Positions 3,133-25,912 of a stretch of DNA of 64,000 nt are shown here, piece after piece. The DNA comes from Kutzneria chonburiensis (GTDB taxonomy: Bacteria > Actinomycetota > Actinomycetes > Mycobacteriales > Pseudonocardiaceae): the NCBI RefSeq assembly GCF_028622115.1, contig NZ_CP097263.1, positions 930,001-994,000 on the forward strand. The letters are read 5' to 3'. The notes under the pieces were generated by a model, which was given only the letters and a program-made list of their open reading frames with translations, did no database searches and was not told the origin of the DNA. Each line of letters opens with the position of its first letter. Within the stretch, counting starts at the first letter, position 1. Position numbers and translations under genes: made by a program.

Positions 3133-4155
3133 CTAGACGGGGGTGGCGGCCAGGGCGGAGCCGATGTGGCGGAGCTGGGTGGTGGCGCCGCCGAGGGCGA
3201 ACTCATGGCGTTTGGCGGCGGTGAAATACCTGTGCAAAGAGTGGCTGAGGTCGATGCCCATGCCGCCATGGACGTGCACGGCGGTGTGGGCGACGTAGTG
3301 GCCGCCCTCGGCGGCCCAGAACTTGGCGGTGGCGAGCTCGGTGTCGCACGGCAGCCCCTCGGACAGGCGCCAGGCGGCCTGCCACAAGGTGAGCCGGATG
3401 GCCTCGACCTGGATGTACGCGTCGGCAAGCCGCTGGGTGACGGCTTGGAAGCTGCCGATGGGGCGGTCGAACTGCTGCCGGGTACGGGCGTACTCGGTGG
3501 TCAGCTCCAAAGCCCGTTCGACGACGCCGAGTTGAAGGGCGCAAAGGCCGACGATGCCGCGCTGGAGGGCGTAGGAAACGGCGGCGCCGGGCAGGACGCG
3601 GTCGGGACCGAGGTGCACGTCGGAGAGGTCGAGCAGGCAGGAGTCGCCGTCGACAACGGACTGCGGCAGCACGGCGGCCTCGTCGGCCTGCACGATGAAC
3701 AGGCGCAAGCCGTCGGAAGTGCTGGCGGGCACCAGGAAGACGTCGGCGGGGGAGACCAGGGACTTGGACCCGGTCAGCCGCCAGCCGGAGGAAACCTCCG
3801 ACGCCCGCGTAACCGGGGCCAGGGGATCGTCGTTGTTCTCCTCGGACAAGGCGACCGAAAGCACGATCGACCCGGTCAGCGCCGGCCGCACCCAGCGGTC
3901 GACGTGCTCGGCCGTGCCGAACCGGGCCACCGTCGACGCACCCTGCACGATGGACGGCAGGTATGGCGCCGACGACACGGCACGGCCGAGTTCGACCAGC
4001 ACGCTGCACTGCTCCAACAGCCCGAAACCGTTGCCACCGGCCGATTCCGGCAAGGCGGCGGCCAGCACTCCGGACGCCGCCAGGTCCGTCCACTGTGGAT
4101 GCTCACGGACCATGGCGGCCAGATCCCGCTGCGCTTCCGACAACTCGAAGTCCAC
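3133..4155 (-). CDS. fadE27: acyl-CoA dehydrogenase, FadE27-like subunit
   Basis: 340 aa, shorter than a canonical 380-400 aa acyl-CoA dehydrogenase, with an abbreviated N-terminal helical domain. GTG start, 12 bases after the stop of the partner gene, in the same transcript. The beta domain and C-terminal helices (YARTRQQFDRPIGSFQA, VHVHGGMGID) are intact. In M. tuberculosis FadE26 and FadE27 form an alpha2beta2 dehydrogenase acting on the first cholesterol side-chain cycle; this gene and its neighbour are arranged the same way. That they form one heteromeric enzyme here is an inference from gene order. Confidence 0.82.
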   Translation of the reverse strand: MDFELSEAQRDLAAMVREHPQWTDLAASGVLAAALPESAGGNGFGLLEQCSVLVELGRAVSSAPYLPSIVQGASTVARFGTAEHVDRWVRPALTGSIVLSVALSEENNDDPLAPVTRASEVSSGWRLTGSKSLVSPADVFLVPASTSDGLRLFIVQADEAAVLPQSVVDGDSCLLDLSDVHLGPDRVLPGAAVSYALQRGIVGLCALQLGVVERALELTTEYARTRQQFDRPIGSFQAVTQRLADAYIQVEAIRLTLWQAAWRLSEGLPCDTELATAKFWAAEGGHYVAHTAVHVHGGMGIDLSHSLHRYFTAAKRHEFALGGATTQLRHIGSALAATPV

Positions 4156-4167
4156 CGGAGGTTCCTT

Positions 4168-5349
<1,182 letters not shown>

Positions 5350-23309: not shown

Positions 23310-24044
23310 ATGACGACGAAGCTGAACCAGATCATCGCGGTGGAGAAGGGCGTCAAGAGCGGCGCGCTCCGCGACCTCACCGACGCGCACCACCAGCTCC
23401 AGAAGCCGGCGCTGCTGGCCGGCATCTCGCGCACGTACCAGCCCAAGGACGAGGACGGCGAGGTGCTGCCGCCGGAGTCCACCCGCGTCCAGGTCAAGAC
23501 CGAGGACGTGCTGCGGCACACCGCGACCGTGCTGACCAGGCTGTTCGACGTCACCGCGACCAAGGACTGGGCCAACTGCGTGGCCCGGGCCGACGTGGTC
23601 GTGGACGGCCGCACGCTGCTGTCCGACGTGCCCGTGTCCTACCTGCTCTTCCTCGAGAAGCAGCTGGTCGACCTGCACACGTTCGTGAAGAAGCTGCCGC
23701 TGCTGGACGCCGCCGAGTCCTGGAGCTTCGAGGAATCCGCCGACTACTGGCGCACCGAGCAGGTGCGGACCATCCGCACCAAGAAGGTGCCCCGCAACCA
23801 CGTCAAGGCCGAGGCCACCGAGAAGCACCCGGCGCAGGTCGAGGTGTACTACGAGGACGTGCCGGTGGGCTACTGGACCACCGTCAAGTTCTCCGGTGCG
23901 CTGCCGGCCCGCCGGGTCAACGAGCTGGTCGACCGGGTCGAGAAGCTCCAGCAGGCGGTCAAGTTCGCCCGCGAGGAGGCCAACGCCCTCGAGGTCACCG
24001 ACCAGCGGATCGGCGACGCCGTGTTCGGCTACCTGTTCGGGTAG
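23310..24044 (+). CDS. conserved protein of unknown function beside permuted tRNA-like genes
   Basis: 244 aa, soluble, no signal peptide. Starts MTTKLNQIIAVEKGVKSG. Features seen: an N-terminal helix with HHQLQKPALLAGISRTY, a central ATKDWANCVARADVVVDGR, a hydrophobic VSYLLFLEKQLVDLHTFVKKLP helix, DYWRTEQVRTIRTKKVPRNHVKAEATEKHPAQVEV, and a C-terminal coiled coil (RRVNELVDRVEKLQQAVKFAREEAN). I cannot name a family. It lies 50 bases before the permuted tRNA-like genes, in the same direction, so a role in binding, processing or using those RNAs is possible; this is inference from proximity only. Confidence 0.7.
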   Translation: MTTKLNQIIAVEKGVKSGALRDLTDAHHQLQKPALLAGISRTYQPKDEDGEVLPPESTRVQVKTEDVLRHTATVLTRLFDVTATKDWANCVARADVVVDGRTLLSDVPVSYLLFLEKQLVDLHTFVKKLPLLDAAESWSFEESADYWRTEQVRTIRTKKVPRNHVKAEATEKHPAQVEVYYEDVPVGYWTTVKFSGALPARRVNELVDRVEKLQQAVKFAREEANALEVTDQRIGDAVFGYLFG

Positions 24045-24055
24045 CCTCCCTGATT

Positions 24056-24094
24056 CCCCGCTGGAGCGCGGGGTGCGCCCCGGACTCGGGGCGC
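24056..24094 (+). other. two consecutive GC-rich hairpins
   Basis: CCCCGC/GCGGGG (24056-24061 with 24068-24073) and GCGCCCCG/CGGGGCGC (24075-24082 with 24087-24094, loop GACT). They lie between the stop of the unknown protein and the first permuted tRNA-like gene: either a terminator or attenuator for the protein gene, or a 5' processing element. No T-tract follows. Confidence 0.5.
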
Positions 24095-24231
24095 GAAGCT
24101 GAAACTGAGTCGTCAGCCTGACAAACCCAGGCCCCAGTGGAGGTTCGAGTCCTCCTCCCGGCACTCGCGCCGGGATGGCCCAACTGGCAGAGGCAGCCCG
24201 GGCATCAACCTCAGACTCTCGCTCCAGCTTC
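24095..24231 (+). tRNA. circularly permuted tRNA-like gene P1 (Leu CAG candidate)
   Basis: The 3' half comes first: T-stem GGAGG/CCTCC around loop TTCGAGT (24139-24155), acceptor strand TCCCGGC (24156-24162) and discriminator A 24163. After a 5-base linker comes the 5' half: acceptor GCCGGGA (24169-24175, seven perfect pairs with the upstream strand), T8, G9, D-arm GCC...GGC with A14 and G18G19. The open ends pair too: GAAGCTG (24095-24101) with CAGCTTC (24225-24231) and GAGTC (24107-24111) with GACTC (24214-24218). CTCAGAC (24210-24216) resembles a CAG anticodon loop; an 18-base variable region would fit leucine. CCA is not encoded. The exact anticodon stem is uncertain (CGGGC 24199-24203 with GCCTG 24116-24120 is the best fit). 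Confidence 0.65.
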
Positions 24232-24258
24232 AGCATTCCGCCGAACACCGGATCGCCC

Positions 24259-24367
24259 GGGGACGGGCGACGATCGCCGAGGTGCGGGTTCAAATCCCGC
24301 TGGCCGCGCCAACCATGCGGCCGTAGCTCAACGGAAGAGCGCGGCGACCTCATACTGACCCGTCCCC
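24259..24367 (+). tRNA. circularly permuted tRNA-like gene P2 (Met CAT candidate)
   Basis: 3' half first: anticodon-stem strand TCGCCG (24274-24279), AGGT, T-stem GCGGG/CCCGC with loop TTCAAAT (24284-24300), acceptor TGGCCGC (24301-24307), discriminator G 24308, encoded CCA 24309-24311. After five bases comes the 5' half: acceptor GCGGCCG (24317-24323; seven pairs, the last G.T), T8, A9, D-arm GCTC...GAGC with GG in the loop (24326-24340), G26, and CGGCGA (24342-24347), which pairs with TCGCCG. Beyond this an outer 9-bp helix joins GGGGACGGG (24259-24267) to CCCGTCCCC (24359-24367). CTCATAC (24349-24355) resembles a CAT anticodon loop. How the two halves are joined at the loop cannot be read. 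Confidence 0.7.
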
Positions 24368-24402
24368 TTAAACGTGCCGGTGTGCGAATTGGGCGGCCAA
24401 GC

Positions 24403-24444
24403 GAGGCCCCGGACTGGCTATGTCCGGGGCCTCACCCTGTTTTT
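24403..24444 (+). terminator. intrinsic terminator after the permuted tRNA-like genes
   Basis: Perfect 11-bp stem GAGGCCCCGGA (24403-24413) / TCCGGGGCCTC (24423-24433), 9-base loop, then TTTTT at 24440-24444. A classic rightward terminator 36 bases past P2, indicating that P1-P2 is transcribed as a unit. Confidence 0.75.
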
Positions 24445-24462: not shown

Positions 24463-24695
24463 GGCTCGGCCCCTGTGGGGCCGATGCCTCGCCCTTGCCG
24501 GATTTCGACCGCCGCGTCGGCGTCGGTGGTGGGGCGCTTCGGTGGCGGCGGCCGAAATCCGGCAACCGGGCGAAGCATCGGCGGGGCCGAGCCGATTTTC
24601 GGTGTGGCAACCGGGCGAAGCATCGGCGGGGCCGAGCCGGTCTTCGGTGTGGCAACCGGGCGAAGCATCGGCGGGGCCGAGCCGATTTTCGGTGT
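24463..24695. repeat. REP-like inverted repeat, copy 1, with 3 x 45-bp tandem repeat
   Basis: Outer arms GGCTCGGCCCC (24463-24473) and GGGGCCGAGCC (24583-24593); inner arms TTGCCGGATTTCG (24495-24507) and CGAAATCCGGCAA (24553-24565), all perfect. The right part is triplicated as 45-bp units at 24561, 24606 and 24651, near-identical. It shares architecture with the elements at 38926 and 41534. No coding use seen; long frames through it are GC artefacts. Confidence 0.7.
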
Positions 24696-24703
24696 GGCGG
24701 ACT

Positions 24704-25912
24704 TCAACCAGCTTGGCGGTCCTCCTCCTGGGCTGCGGGGGGCTCGGTCAGGGAGGCGGCGCGCAGGGCCACTTCCAGCTCGAAACGGGCGTCGGGGCAG
24801 CGGAGCTGGTCGCCGAACAGGCGTTCCACCTGCCGCATCCGGTAGCGCACGGTCTGCGGGTGCACCCGCAGCCGGGCGGCGATCTCGGGGGCGCCGCCGC
24901 GGGTTTCGAGCCAGGCCAACAGGGTCTCGCCGAGCCGCTTGTGCTGCTTGTCGGTCAGCGGGGCCAGCGGGGCCAGGCGCTTGCGGATGAGCTGCTCGAC
25001 CAGGAACTCGTCGGTCAGCAGCCACAGCGTGGACAGGTGGTCGGCGCAGCGCACCGGGGACTCGTCCTCGATGGTGTTGCGCCGCACCAGCTCCCGGGCC
25101 AGCTGCGCGTGCCGGAACGACTTGGCGGCGTCGGCCAGCGCGGTGGTCGGCCCGATCACCACGCGCCAGTCGGCCAGCGCGTCGGCGCAACGCGACCACC
25201 AGTCGGTGGCGTCGGGATCGGGCACCACCAGACAGGCCTGCGCGCCCTGGAAGTCGGCCAGCACGTGGTCCGGCAGCTCGGGGACGGCATCGGCCGGCCC
25301 GCTGACACGATCCAGCATCACCACGCACAGCTGCGCCGGCAGCGGCCACCGCGCCGCCCCGGCCAGCTCGGCCGCCTCGGCACGGTCCTTGTCCTCGTCA
25401 CTGATCAGCAGGCGCACCAGGCGCTTGCGCCGTCGCAGCAGGCCCTGCGCGCTGCGCGCCTGCATGTCGGCGTAGCCCTCGACGGACAGCGCGATGAGCT
25501 CGTCGGCGTAGGCCAGCGTGGCCTCGCCCAGCGTGAACATCATCGCGGTGGGCAGGCCGCTGCGCTGCCGGAACCGGATCAGGTGGCGCCAGGCCACTCT
25601 GGTGCCCAGCCGGTAGGCCTTCTGCAGCGAGTCGAGGCTGCGGCCCTCGCTCGCCTCCAGCCGGCCGAGCTGGCGGTAGACCTCGGCGAATTCGGTACGT
25701 GGCCGGTCCGGGTCGGCGATGCGGTCCACGAACTGCGTCAGCGCCTGGTTGACGCCCAGCCGGATGGCCTGCCCGTAGCAGCCGTCCAGCGGCTTCGCGT
25801 ACTCCGGGATCGTGGCCCGGATGGTGTGGACGATGTCCTCGGCCAGCGGTGCCAGCTGAGGTCTGATCAGTGTCGCCAATTCCCTGGGCAGCCGTTCGGC
25901 GGTCGTTCTCAT
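24704..25912 (-). CDS. PucR/CdaR-family transcriptional regulator
   Basis: 402 aa from ATG 25912; a GTG 42 bases upstream would add MAESPNTDSSGDEA and cannot be excluded. N-terminal helical sensor region, central GGDEF-like fold remnant, and C-terminal HTH_30 (LLAWLETRGGAPEIAARLRVHPQTVRYRMRQVERLFG, about residues 350-385), the DNA-binding part of PucR-type activators. No obvious target operon adjacent; the divergent region holds a frameshifted methyltransferase. Regulated pathway unknown. Confidence 0.8.
   Translation of the reverse strand: MRTTAERLPRELATLIRPQLAPLAEDIVHTIRATIPEYAKPLDGCYGQAIRLGVNQALTQFVDRIADPDRPRTEFAEVYRQLGRLEASEGRSLDSLQKAYRLGTRVAWRHLIRFRQRSGLPTAMMFTLGEATLAYADELIALSVEGYADMQARSAQGLLRRRKRLVRLLISDEDKDRAEAAELAGAARWPLPAQLCVVMLDRVSGPADAVPELPDHVLADFQGAQACLVVPDPDATDWWSRCADALADWRVVIGPTTALADAAKSFRHAQLARELVRRNTIEDESPVRCADHLSTLWLLTDEFLVEQLIRKRLAPLAPLTDKQHKRLGETLLAWLETRGGAPEIAARLRVHPQTVRYRMRQVERLFGDQLRCPDARFELEVALRAASLTEPPAAQEEDRQAG

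Follow-up and report, generated by a model that had tools for sequence, protein, structure and literature searches.

The window analyzed here, the whole 64,000-nt stretch of Kutzneria chonburiensis DNA, encodes a protein of the DUF7873 family and, 3′ of its gene, a structured RNA of ~380 nt that extends from about bp 24056 to 24433. The RNA includes two tRNA-like units, at 24139–24194 (unit 1) and 24284–24340 (unit 2), in which the parts of a tRNA follow each other in the order T-arm, 3′ acceptor strand, linker, 5′ acceptor strand, D-arm. The preliminary description had seen these two tandem units in permuted order and had taken them for circularly permuted tRNA genes. The units are present, and the scan controls given below place them far from chance. 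Both are arms of one larger RNA with covarying stalks, and the stalks of both heads lead into a common conserved sequence. ARAGORN finds zero tRNAs in the window, and Rfam at curated cut-offs finds no match in it. The features are collected in Table 1.

Table 1. The DUF7873 gene and the parts of the adjacent RNA, in window coordinates.
Feature	Coordinates	Strand	Evidence or remark
DUF7873 protein gene, 244 aa	23310-24044	+	Pfam PF25283, 402.7 bits, E 8.4e-121, cut-off 27
5′ hairpin CCCC-GCTGGAGCGC-GGGG	24056-24073	+	hairpin kept across the actinomycete alignment
Second 5′ hairpin GCGCCCC/GGGGCGC	24075-24094	+	3′ strand 24088-24093 doubles as candidate core-helix strand
Conserved AAGCTGAAACTGAG	24096-24109	+	sequence conservation
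Unit 1 stalk, 5′ strand	24126-24132	+	pairs with 24196-24202, 6/7
Unit 1 T-arm GGAGG-TTCGAGT-CCTCC	24139-24155	+	window sequence
Unit 1 3′ acceptor TCCCGGC	24156-24162	+	window sequence; T-arm and 3′ acceptor strand covary
Unit 1 linker	24163-24168	+	length 4-62 nt, ends conserved (107 loci)
Unit 1 5′ acceptor GCCGGGA	24169-24175	+	pairs 7/7
Unit 1 5′ acceptor strand and D-arm	24169-24194	+	window sequence; alignment covariation
Conserved core TCAACCTCAGACTCTCGCTCCAGCTTCAGCATT	24205-24237	+	conservation; core helix
Unit 2 outermost helix, 5′ strand	24246-24251	+	pairs with 24377-24382; double changes in 6/6 pairs
Unit 2 9-bp outer helix, 5′ strand	24259-24267	+	pairs with 24359-24367; double changes in 9/9 pairs
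Unit 2 inner stem (anticodon-stem position), 5′ strand	24274-24279	+	pairs with 24342-24347
Unit 2 T-arm GCGGG-TTCAAAT-CCCGC	24284-24300	+	window sequence; alignment covariation
Unit 2 3′ acceptor TGGCCGC	24301-24307	+	window sequence; alignment covariation
Unit 2 linker GCCAACCAT	24308-24316	+	length 6-76 nt (107 loci)
Unit 2 5′ acceptor GCGGCCG	24317-24323	+	pairs 7/7, one G.T
Unit 2 D-arm	24326-24340	+	5′ acceptor strand and D-arm together 24317-24340; alignment covariation
Unit 2 stalk, 3′ strands	24342-24382	+	include conserved CTTAAACG at 24367-24374
3′ hairpin, 12-bp stem, GGNTAY loop (here GGCTAT)	24403-24433	+	T-run follows at 24440-24444

Much of what had been read in the window holds. 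The acceptor strands pair fully in both units, with a single G.T in unit 2, and closure on the anticodon side by outer helices is borne out by compensatory changes across relatives. Of the outer helices themselves, the 9-bp helix of unit 2 is present and covaries; in the 7-nt helix of unit 1, read by eye in the window, one position is an A-C mismatch, and the support for this stalk comes from relatives. The claim that the linear order does not fold as a normal tRNA also stands, as the number of loci in which the 5′ acceptor strand of unit 1 matches the 3′ acceptor strand of unit 2 at 6 or more of the 7 positions (7 of 107) equals the between-locus background (~7/107).

Relatives were drawn from species genomes (the best 80 of 545) and viral contigs (the best 80 of 260), with eight phage records, one Nonomuraea locus, and the window added. 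A scan whose rules were tuned on these same loci found at least one permuted unit in all 82 actinomycete loci (the best 80 of 545 relatives plus two), of which 58 have two units and 24 have one, and in 77 of the 88 phage or viral loci (the best 80 of 260 plus the eight records), 49 with two units and 28 with one. In the control set, hits came from 9 of 469 further 700-nt stretches of these loci and from none of 170 antisense stretches. A covariance model of unit 2 with its stalk gave full-span matches of 32 to 126 bits in 8 of the 11 loci missed by the scan, and one of 46 bits in a Rhizobium phage (L223). Matches to the head only were obtained in L224 (37.7 bits) and in Vibrio phages L097 (19.1 bits) and L225 (17.1 bits). 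The weakest relatives, L095, L097, L224, and L225, have a partial model match or 17–38 bits, and three loci with DUF7873 (L109, L110, and L153) show no convincing RNA match within the fetched stretch. Overall, the gene and the permuted units recur in actinomycetes and in phages of Actinobacteria, cyanobacteria, Rhizobium, Klebsiella, and Vibrio.

The two heads are not equally constant. In L019 and L081 a plain hairpin takes the place of the unit 1 head, and the core and unit 2 are kept; among the 24 one-unit actinomycete loci, true loss of unit 1 is confirmed for these two only. Judged by eye, the Rhizobium and Vibrio phages follow the same pattern, with the unit 1 head replaced and core and unit 2 retained.

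The fold was derived from alignments. Unit 2 and its stalk were aligned for 34 of the 35 loci having a unit 2 linker of ≤14 nt (L094 was omitted). On this alignment alone, RNAalifold predicts the T-arm, the acceptor stem across the linker, the D-arm, and the 9-bp and 6-bp helices. Changes on both sides are found in 29 of the 31 predicted pairs, and 95.4% of the cells pair, versus 41.6–45.7% when the partners are slid by 1 to 3 columns. For unit 1, 40 of the 46 loci with a linker of ≤14 nt were aligned (L075, L094, L096, L148, L164, and L177 were omitted); 16 pairs are predicted, 13 of which undergo a double change at least once. Compensatory changes, which the preliminary description had proposed to look for, occur in the acceptor, T, D, and stalk helices of unit 2 and in most predicted pairs of unit 1. 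Ranking by mutual information, for which 103 of the 107 two-unit loci were used after identical ones were dropped, puts the same head pairs and the unit 2 stalk at the top; the acceptor, T, and D pairs had served in locus selection, and the stalk pairs had not.

Covariation of the stalk helices is found both by that ranking and by pairing tests on matched versus mismatched loci, made with 57 of the 107 two-unit loci. The unit 1 stalk has a mean of 4.81 in matched versus 3.89 in mismatched loci, and the inner stem of unit 2 has 5.16 versus 4.03; 0 of 5000 permutations reach the matched value in either case. The same holds for a candidate core helix of 24088–24093 with 24220–24225 (5.19 versus 4.36; 0 of 5000), for which the loop of the first hairpin (24061–24068) offers an equally good partner of 24220–24225 in the window. 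A candidate pseudoknot of 24098–24103 with 24229–24234 (PK) gives a weak signal (p 0.011), and a third core pairing (PB) gives none (p 0.51) in these 57 loci. The 3′ hairpin with its GGNTAY loop is found in 39 of the 57 diverse loci versus 1 of 57 control stretches. Shortly 3′ of the RNA, a GC-rich unit of 45 bases (ggcaaccgggcgaagcatcggcggggccgagcc...) occurs in the window in three tandem, nearly identical copies at 24560–24705.

DUF7873 is encoded by 7 of 396 genomes of the phylum, 8 of 200 genomes of the order, and 73 of 50,697 phage records. Among the matches listed, the nearest relative of the window's protein is 98% identical and comes from Kutzneria buriramensis; the protein alignment comprised 44 proteins. 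The structure of DUF7873 is modeled with a pLDDT of 92.2, and the predicted fold has no useful structural match and gives no clue to function. PADLOC has no model that matches the protein. None of the papers searched mentions DUF7873, and those listed for permuted tRNAs, Y RNAs, phage tRNAs, and large RNAs showed nothing on this RNA.

Gene and RNA keep constant company. The preliminary description had suggested a covariance-model search of related genomes, and in such a search the RNA does recur: across the 396 genomes the unit 2 model has seven matches above 70 bits (72.4–155.7), in exactly the seven genomes with DUF7873, each on the 3′ side of the gene and 194–283 nt downstream. The next best match is partial and has 55.1 bits. 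Some match at E ≤ 0.001 is found in 168 of the 396 genomes; those listed are mostly short, covering the T-arm, acceptor, and D-arm stretch, and since tRNAs, tandem tRNAs, and Y RNAs give the same, the head by itself is not specific. The RNA comes before the DUF7873 gene in L152 and is encoded on the other strand in L163, which marks it as a partner of DUF7873 rather than its 3′ UTR. At the level of sequence, comparison establishes the fold of both heads, the stalks, the 3′ hairpin, and the constant association with DUF7873.

The block common to the window, Lentzea, and Actinophytocola ends at 23315 and 24436, with unrelated flanks; with Actinoallomurus and two Streptomyces the block is 23317–24397, and no other flank similarity is seen. 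The two Kutzneria loci also retain the neighboring genes. In Arthrobacter, Rhodococcus, Gordonia, and Rhizobium phages, DUF7873 sits amid tRNA genes, with an unannotated gap at the site of the RNA.

The linkers vary in length, from 4 to 76 nt over the two units taken together in the 107 two-unit loci, and their ends are conserved. C occupies the second linker base (position 74) in 98 of the 107 loci in unit 1 and in 102 in unit 2; at the third-last base (−3), C is found in 100 and 89 of the 107 loci, respectively. At position 73, unit 1 has A in 91 of 107 loci, and unit 2 has T or G in 105. Of the two units, unit 1 is the one that often encodes ACCA (39/107). Of the 57 linear tRNA genes of this genome, 52 were parsed, and all of these have C74; C at −3 is present in 13 of the 20 examined. 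After the discriminator and C74, positions 75–76 vary in the 52 parsed genes, which indicates that CCA is mostly not encoded.

The first sign of a bacterial precedent for the permuted order came from weak matches to the Rfam YrlA model: with permissive settings, 801 bases gave 30.8 bits (E 1.4e-4) for unit 2 and 17 bits (E 1.4) for unit 1, the gathering score being 69. A permuted tRNA-like topology is indeed already known in bacterial Y RNAs. The statement that no established bacterial example is known fits permuted tRNA genes, for which the sections of a review that bear on the matter name only algae and one archaeon, and does not fit permuted tRNA-like domains. YrlA (RF02553), the RNA that goes with Rsr/Ro60, likewise has a head in which T-arm, acceptor, and D-arm follow one another, and this head sits on a stem made by the ends of the RNA. 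In contrast, the RNA described here has two heads, is ~380 nt long, has DUF7873 rather than Rsr as its partner, and possesses an additional conserved core and a 3′ hairpin; YrlA and bacterial Y RNAs have a single head and, according to passages of PMC8394870, a size of about 90–150 nt. The permuted head is thus common to Y RNAs, while gene partner, size, head number, and core differ.

Other known RNAs are more distant. Permuted, two-piece tmRNA genes, in the portions of the literature consulted, are likewise bacterial and place the 3′ acceptor strand before the 5′ acceptor strand with a linker between them, which according to parts of a review is opened by RNase P and RNase Z; the present RNA differs in its full D-arm with a covarying stem and in its two heads. 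At gathering level the Rfam tmRNA models hit neither the window nor the RNA of 20 related loci; what they do match in those loci lies elsewhere. Ordinary tmRNA matches are found in L146 and L092, and a viral contig with DUF7873 and its RNA carries a permuted tmRNA (L168:5537–5834; Rfam tmRNA_permuted, 59.8 bits). The circularly permuted tRNA genes known from algae and one archaeon agree in the order of halves and in matching acceptor, T, and D stems; here, however, there is no junction anticodon loop, the heads lie inside a larger RNA, and a protein gene accompanies them. GOLLD and ROOL, as presented in sections of PMC12286853, are large structured RNAs that can lie in phage and actinobacterial tRNA arrays; unlike them, the present RNA has built-in tRNA-like heads and a linked protein gene, and their Rfam models found no match in the window or the 20 related loci. 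By the tests made, the RNA is set apart from known permuted tRNA genes, tmRNA (by Rfam match), GOLLD, and ROOL.

Taken together, the locus looks like an undescribed RNA–protein system rather than two odd tRNA genes. We propose, with reasonable confidence, that window ~23310–24436 is a mobile two-part cassette, consisting of the DUF7873 gene and a separate structured RNA of ~380 nt, and that it acts by tRNA mimicry. The RNA would consist of the core and two arms ending in tRNA-like heads, each with a T-loop, a D-loop with G18G19, U8, and a 7-bp acceptor. Each head would join the core at the position of the tRNA's anticodon arm, so that the acceptor end would be a loop or linker. That the RNA is transcribed and stable is very likely. 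It probably forms a complex with the DUF7873 protein, and the heads are likely to mimic tRNA towards factors that grip its elbow and acceptor (RNase P, RNase Z, EF-Tu, a synthetase, or a tRNA nuclease, for instance). We favor a phage origin for the complex. More tentatively, the pair may be of phage use, e.g., in protection or take-over of the tRNA pool in infection, with actinomycetes having acquired it.

The elements most probably form no decoding tRNAs. True circularly permuted tRNA genes, whose transcripts would be circularized at the anticodon and opened at the acceptor, would account for the order of halves and for the intact elbow and acceptor, and are nevertheless extremely unlikely. 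The sequence at the would-be anticodon of unit 2 is not conserved between genera (CTCATAC in the window, CCTAAGG in Lentzea, and CCTGATG in Streptomyces), the inner and outer stalk helices run on into the core, unit 1 is lost in L019 and L081, and the genome already has a complete linear set of 57 tRNA genes, whose 43 anticodons serve all 20 amino acids. The ligation at an anticodon loop that had been envisaged accordingly finds no support. None of the 57 linear genes closely copies either unit. Tandem tRNAs are able to imitate such an order, and the model does give short matches of this kind, but the covariation and the scan controls leave a negligible chance for accident or for decaying tandem tRNA genes, a candidate ruled out by the compensatory changes. 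A cis-regulatory 3′ UTR of DUF7873 is very improbable too: the RNA is usually directly 3′ of the gene on the same strand, yet it has its own 3′ hairpin besides the upstream and opposite-strand placements of L152 and L163. A Y RNA in the strict sense, a tether for the Rsr (Ro60) protein, is improbable despite the shared head order, the weak YrlA matches, and a TROVE gene elsewhere in the genome. That Rsr gene, at 9620180, is the genome's sole TROVE match, lies 8.7 Mb in record coordinates from the two-headed RNA (~954056–954433), and has its own YrlA-like RNA upstream with 52.6 bits, itself below the Rfam cut-off of 69. The tested reading frames near the DUF7873 gene encode a PucR-type regulator, a ROK family protein, an HxlR-type regulator, and a dehydrogenase, none of them TROVE, and two of the seven DUF7873 genomes checked (G171 and G369) have no TROVE match. 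The RNA resembles a Y RNA in its head and departs from Y RNAs in two features, the single head with its size and the linked rsr.

Two further proposals concern how a tRNA-mimicking cassette might work. The heads could be decoys or baits against tRNA-cutting defenses that capture tRNA-attacking nucleases, the DUF7873 protein serving as carrier. The phage distribution, the position in phage tRNA arrays, the preserved elbow features, and a similar role suggested for the YrlA tRNA-like domain in passages of PMC7790460 favor this idea. We regard it as rather unlikely, since there is no conserved anticodon loop, so that the heads would offer no bait to anticodon nucleases reading that loop, and DUF7873 matches no PADLOC model. 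Alternatively, the model could be two-piece tmRNA, which is made from permuted genes: both linkers may be removed by RNase P and RNase Z (or by exonucleases) and CCA added, leaving two or three base-paired pieces with tRNA-like, perhaps aminoacylated acceptor ends. We consider this possible but less likely than not. C74 and C at −3 resemble tRNA processing junctions, as expected if these enzymes open the linker; the ends stay conserved while the length ranges so widely; and position 73 has its own preference in each unit. On the other side, ACCA is often encoded in unit 1 only, the unit 1 linker is as short as 4 nt in L102 and L103, and two of five Rsr-linked Y RNA heads, inspected by eye, carry the same linker ends on 7-nt linkers (the remaining three have tight caps, in one case TTCG), so that the ends may be a loop motif. 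Carried to its end, the tmRNA analogy would make DUF7873 and its RNA a machine spread by phages, with both linkers opened by the host's tRNA processing enzymes. One scaffold would then carry several RNA pieces and two acceptor ends, each with CCA and possibly aminoacylated, and would in principle be a two-headed counterpart of two-piece tmRNA; this whole picture we consider doubtful.

If the proposed mimicry cassette is real, phages and actinomycetes would have in common an RNA–protein system in which tRNA mimicry is doubled and permuted, and the uncharacterized DUF7873 family would gain an RNA partner. Whether tRNA-like domains in permuted order are substrates of bacterial RNase P and RNase Z would become directly testable, and unannotated gaps in phage tRNA arrays would be explained.

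A few minor observations were made on related RNAs. The YrlA-like RNA 5′ of this genome's Rsr gene is at L217:1295–1390. Four Streptomyces genomes (G023, G161, G193, and G334; loci L218–L222) have tandem pairs of YrlA-like heads upstream of TROVE, and all YrlA-like RNAs in the scanned TROVE loci score below the Rfam cut-off. In L172 and L173, at ~3960–4270, a long insert rather than a short linker seems to part the unit 1 acceptor strands. In a Microcoleus phage (L095:5240–5410) the unit 2 linker, judged by eye, seems to contain further nested tRNA-like pieces.
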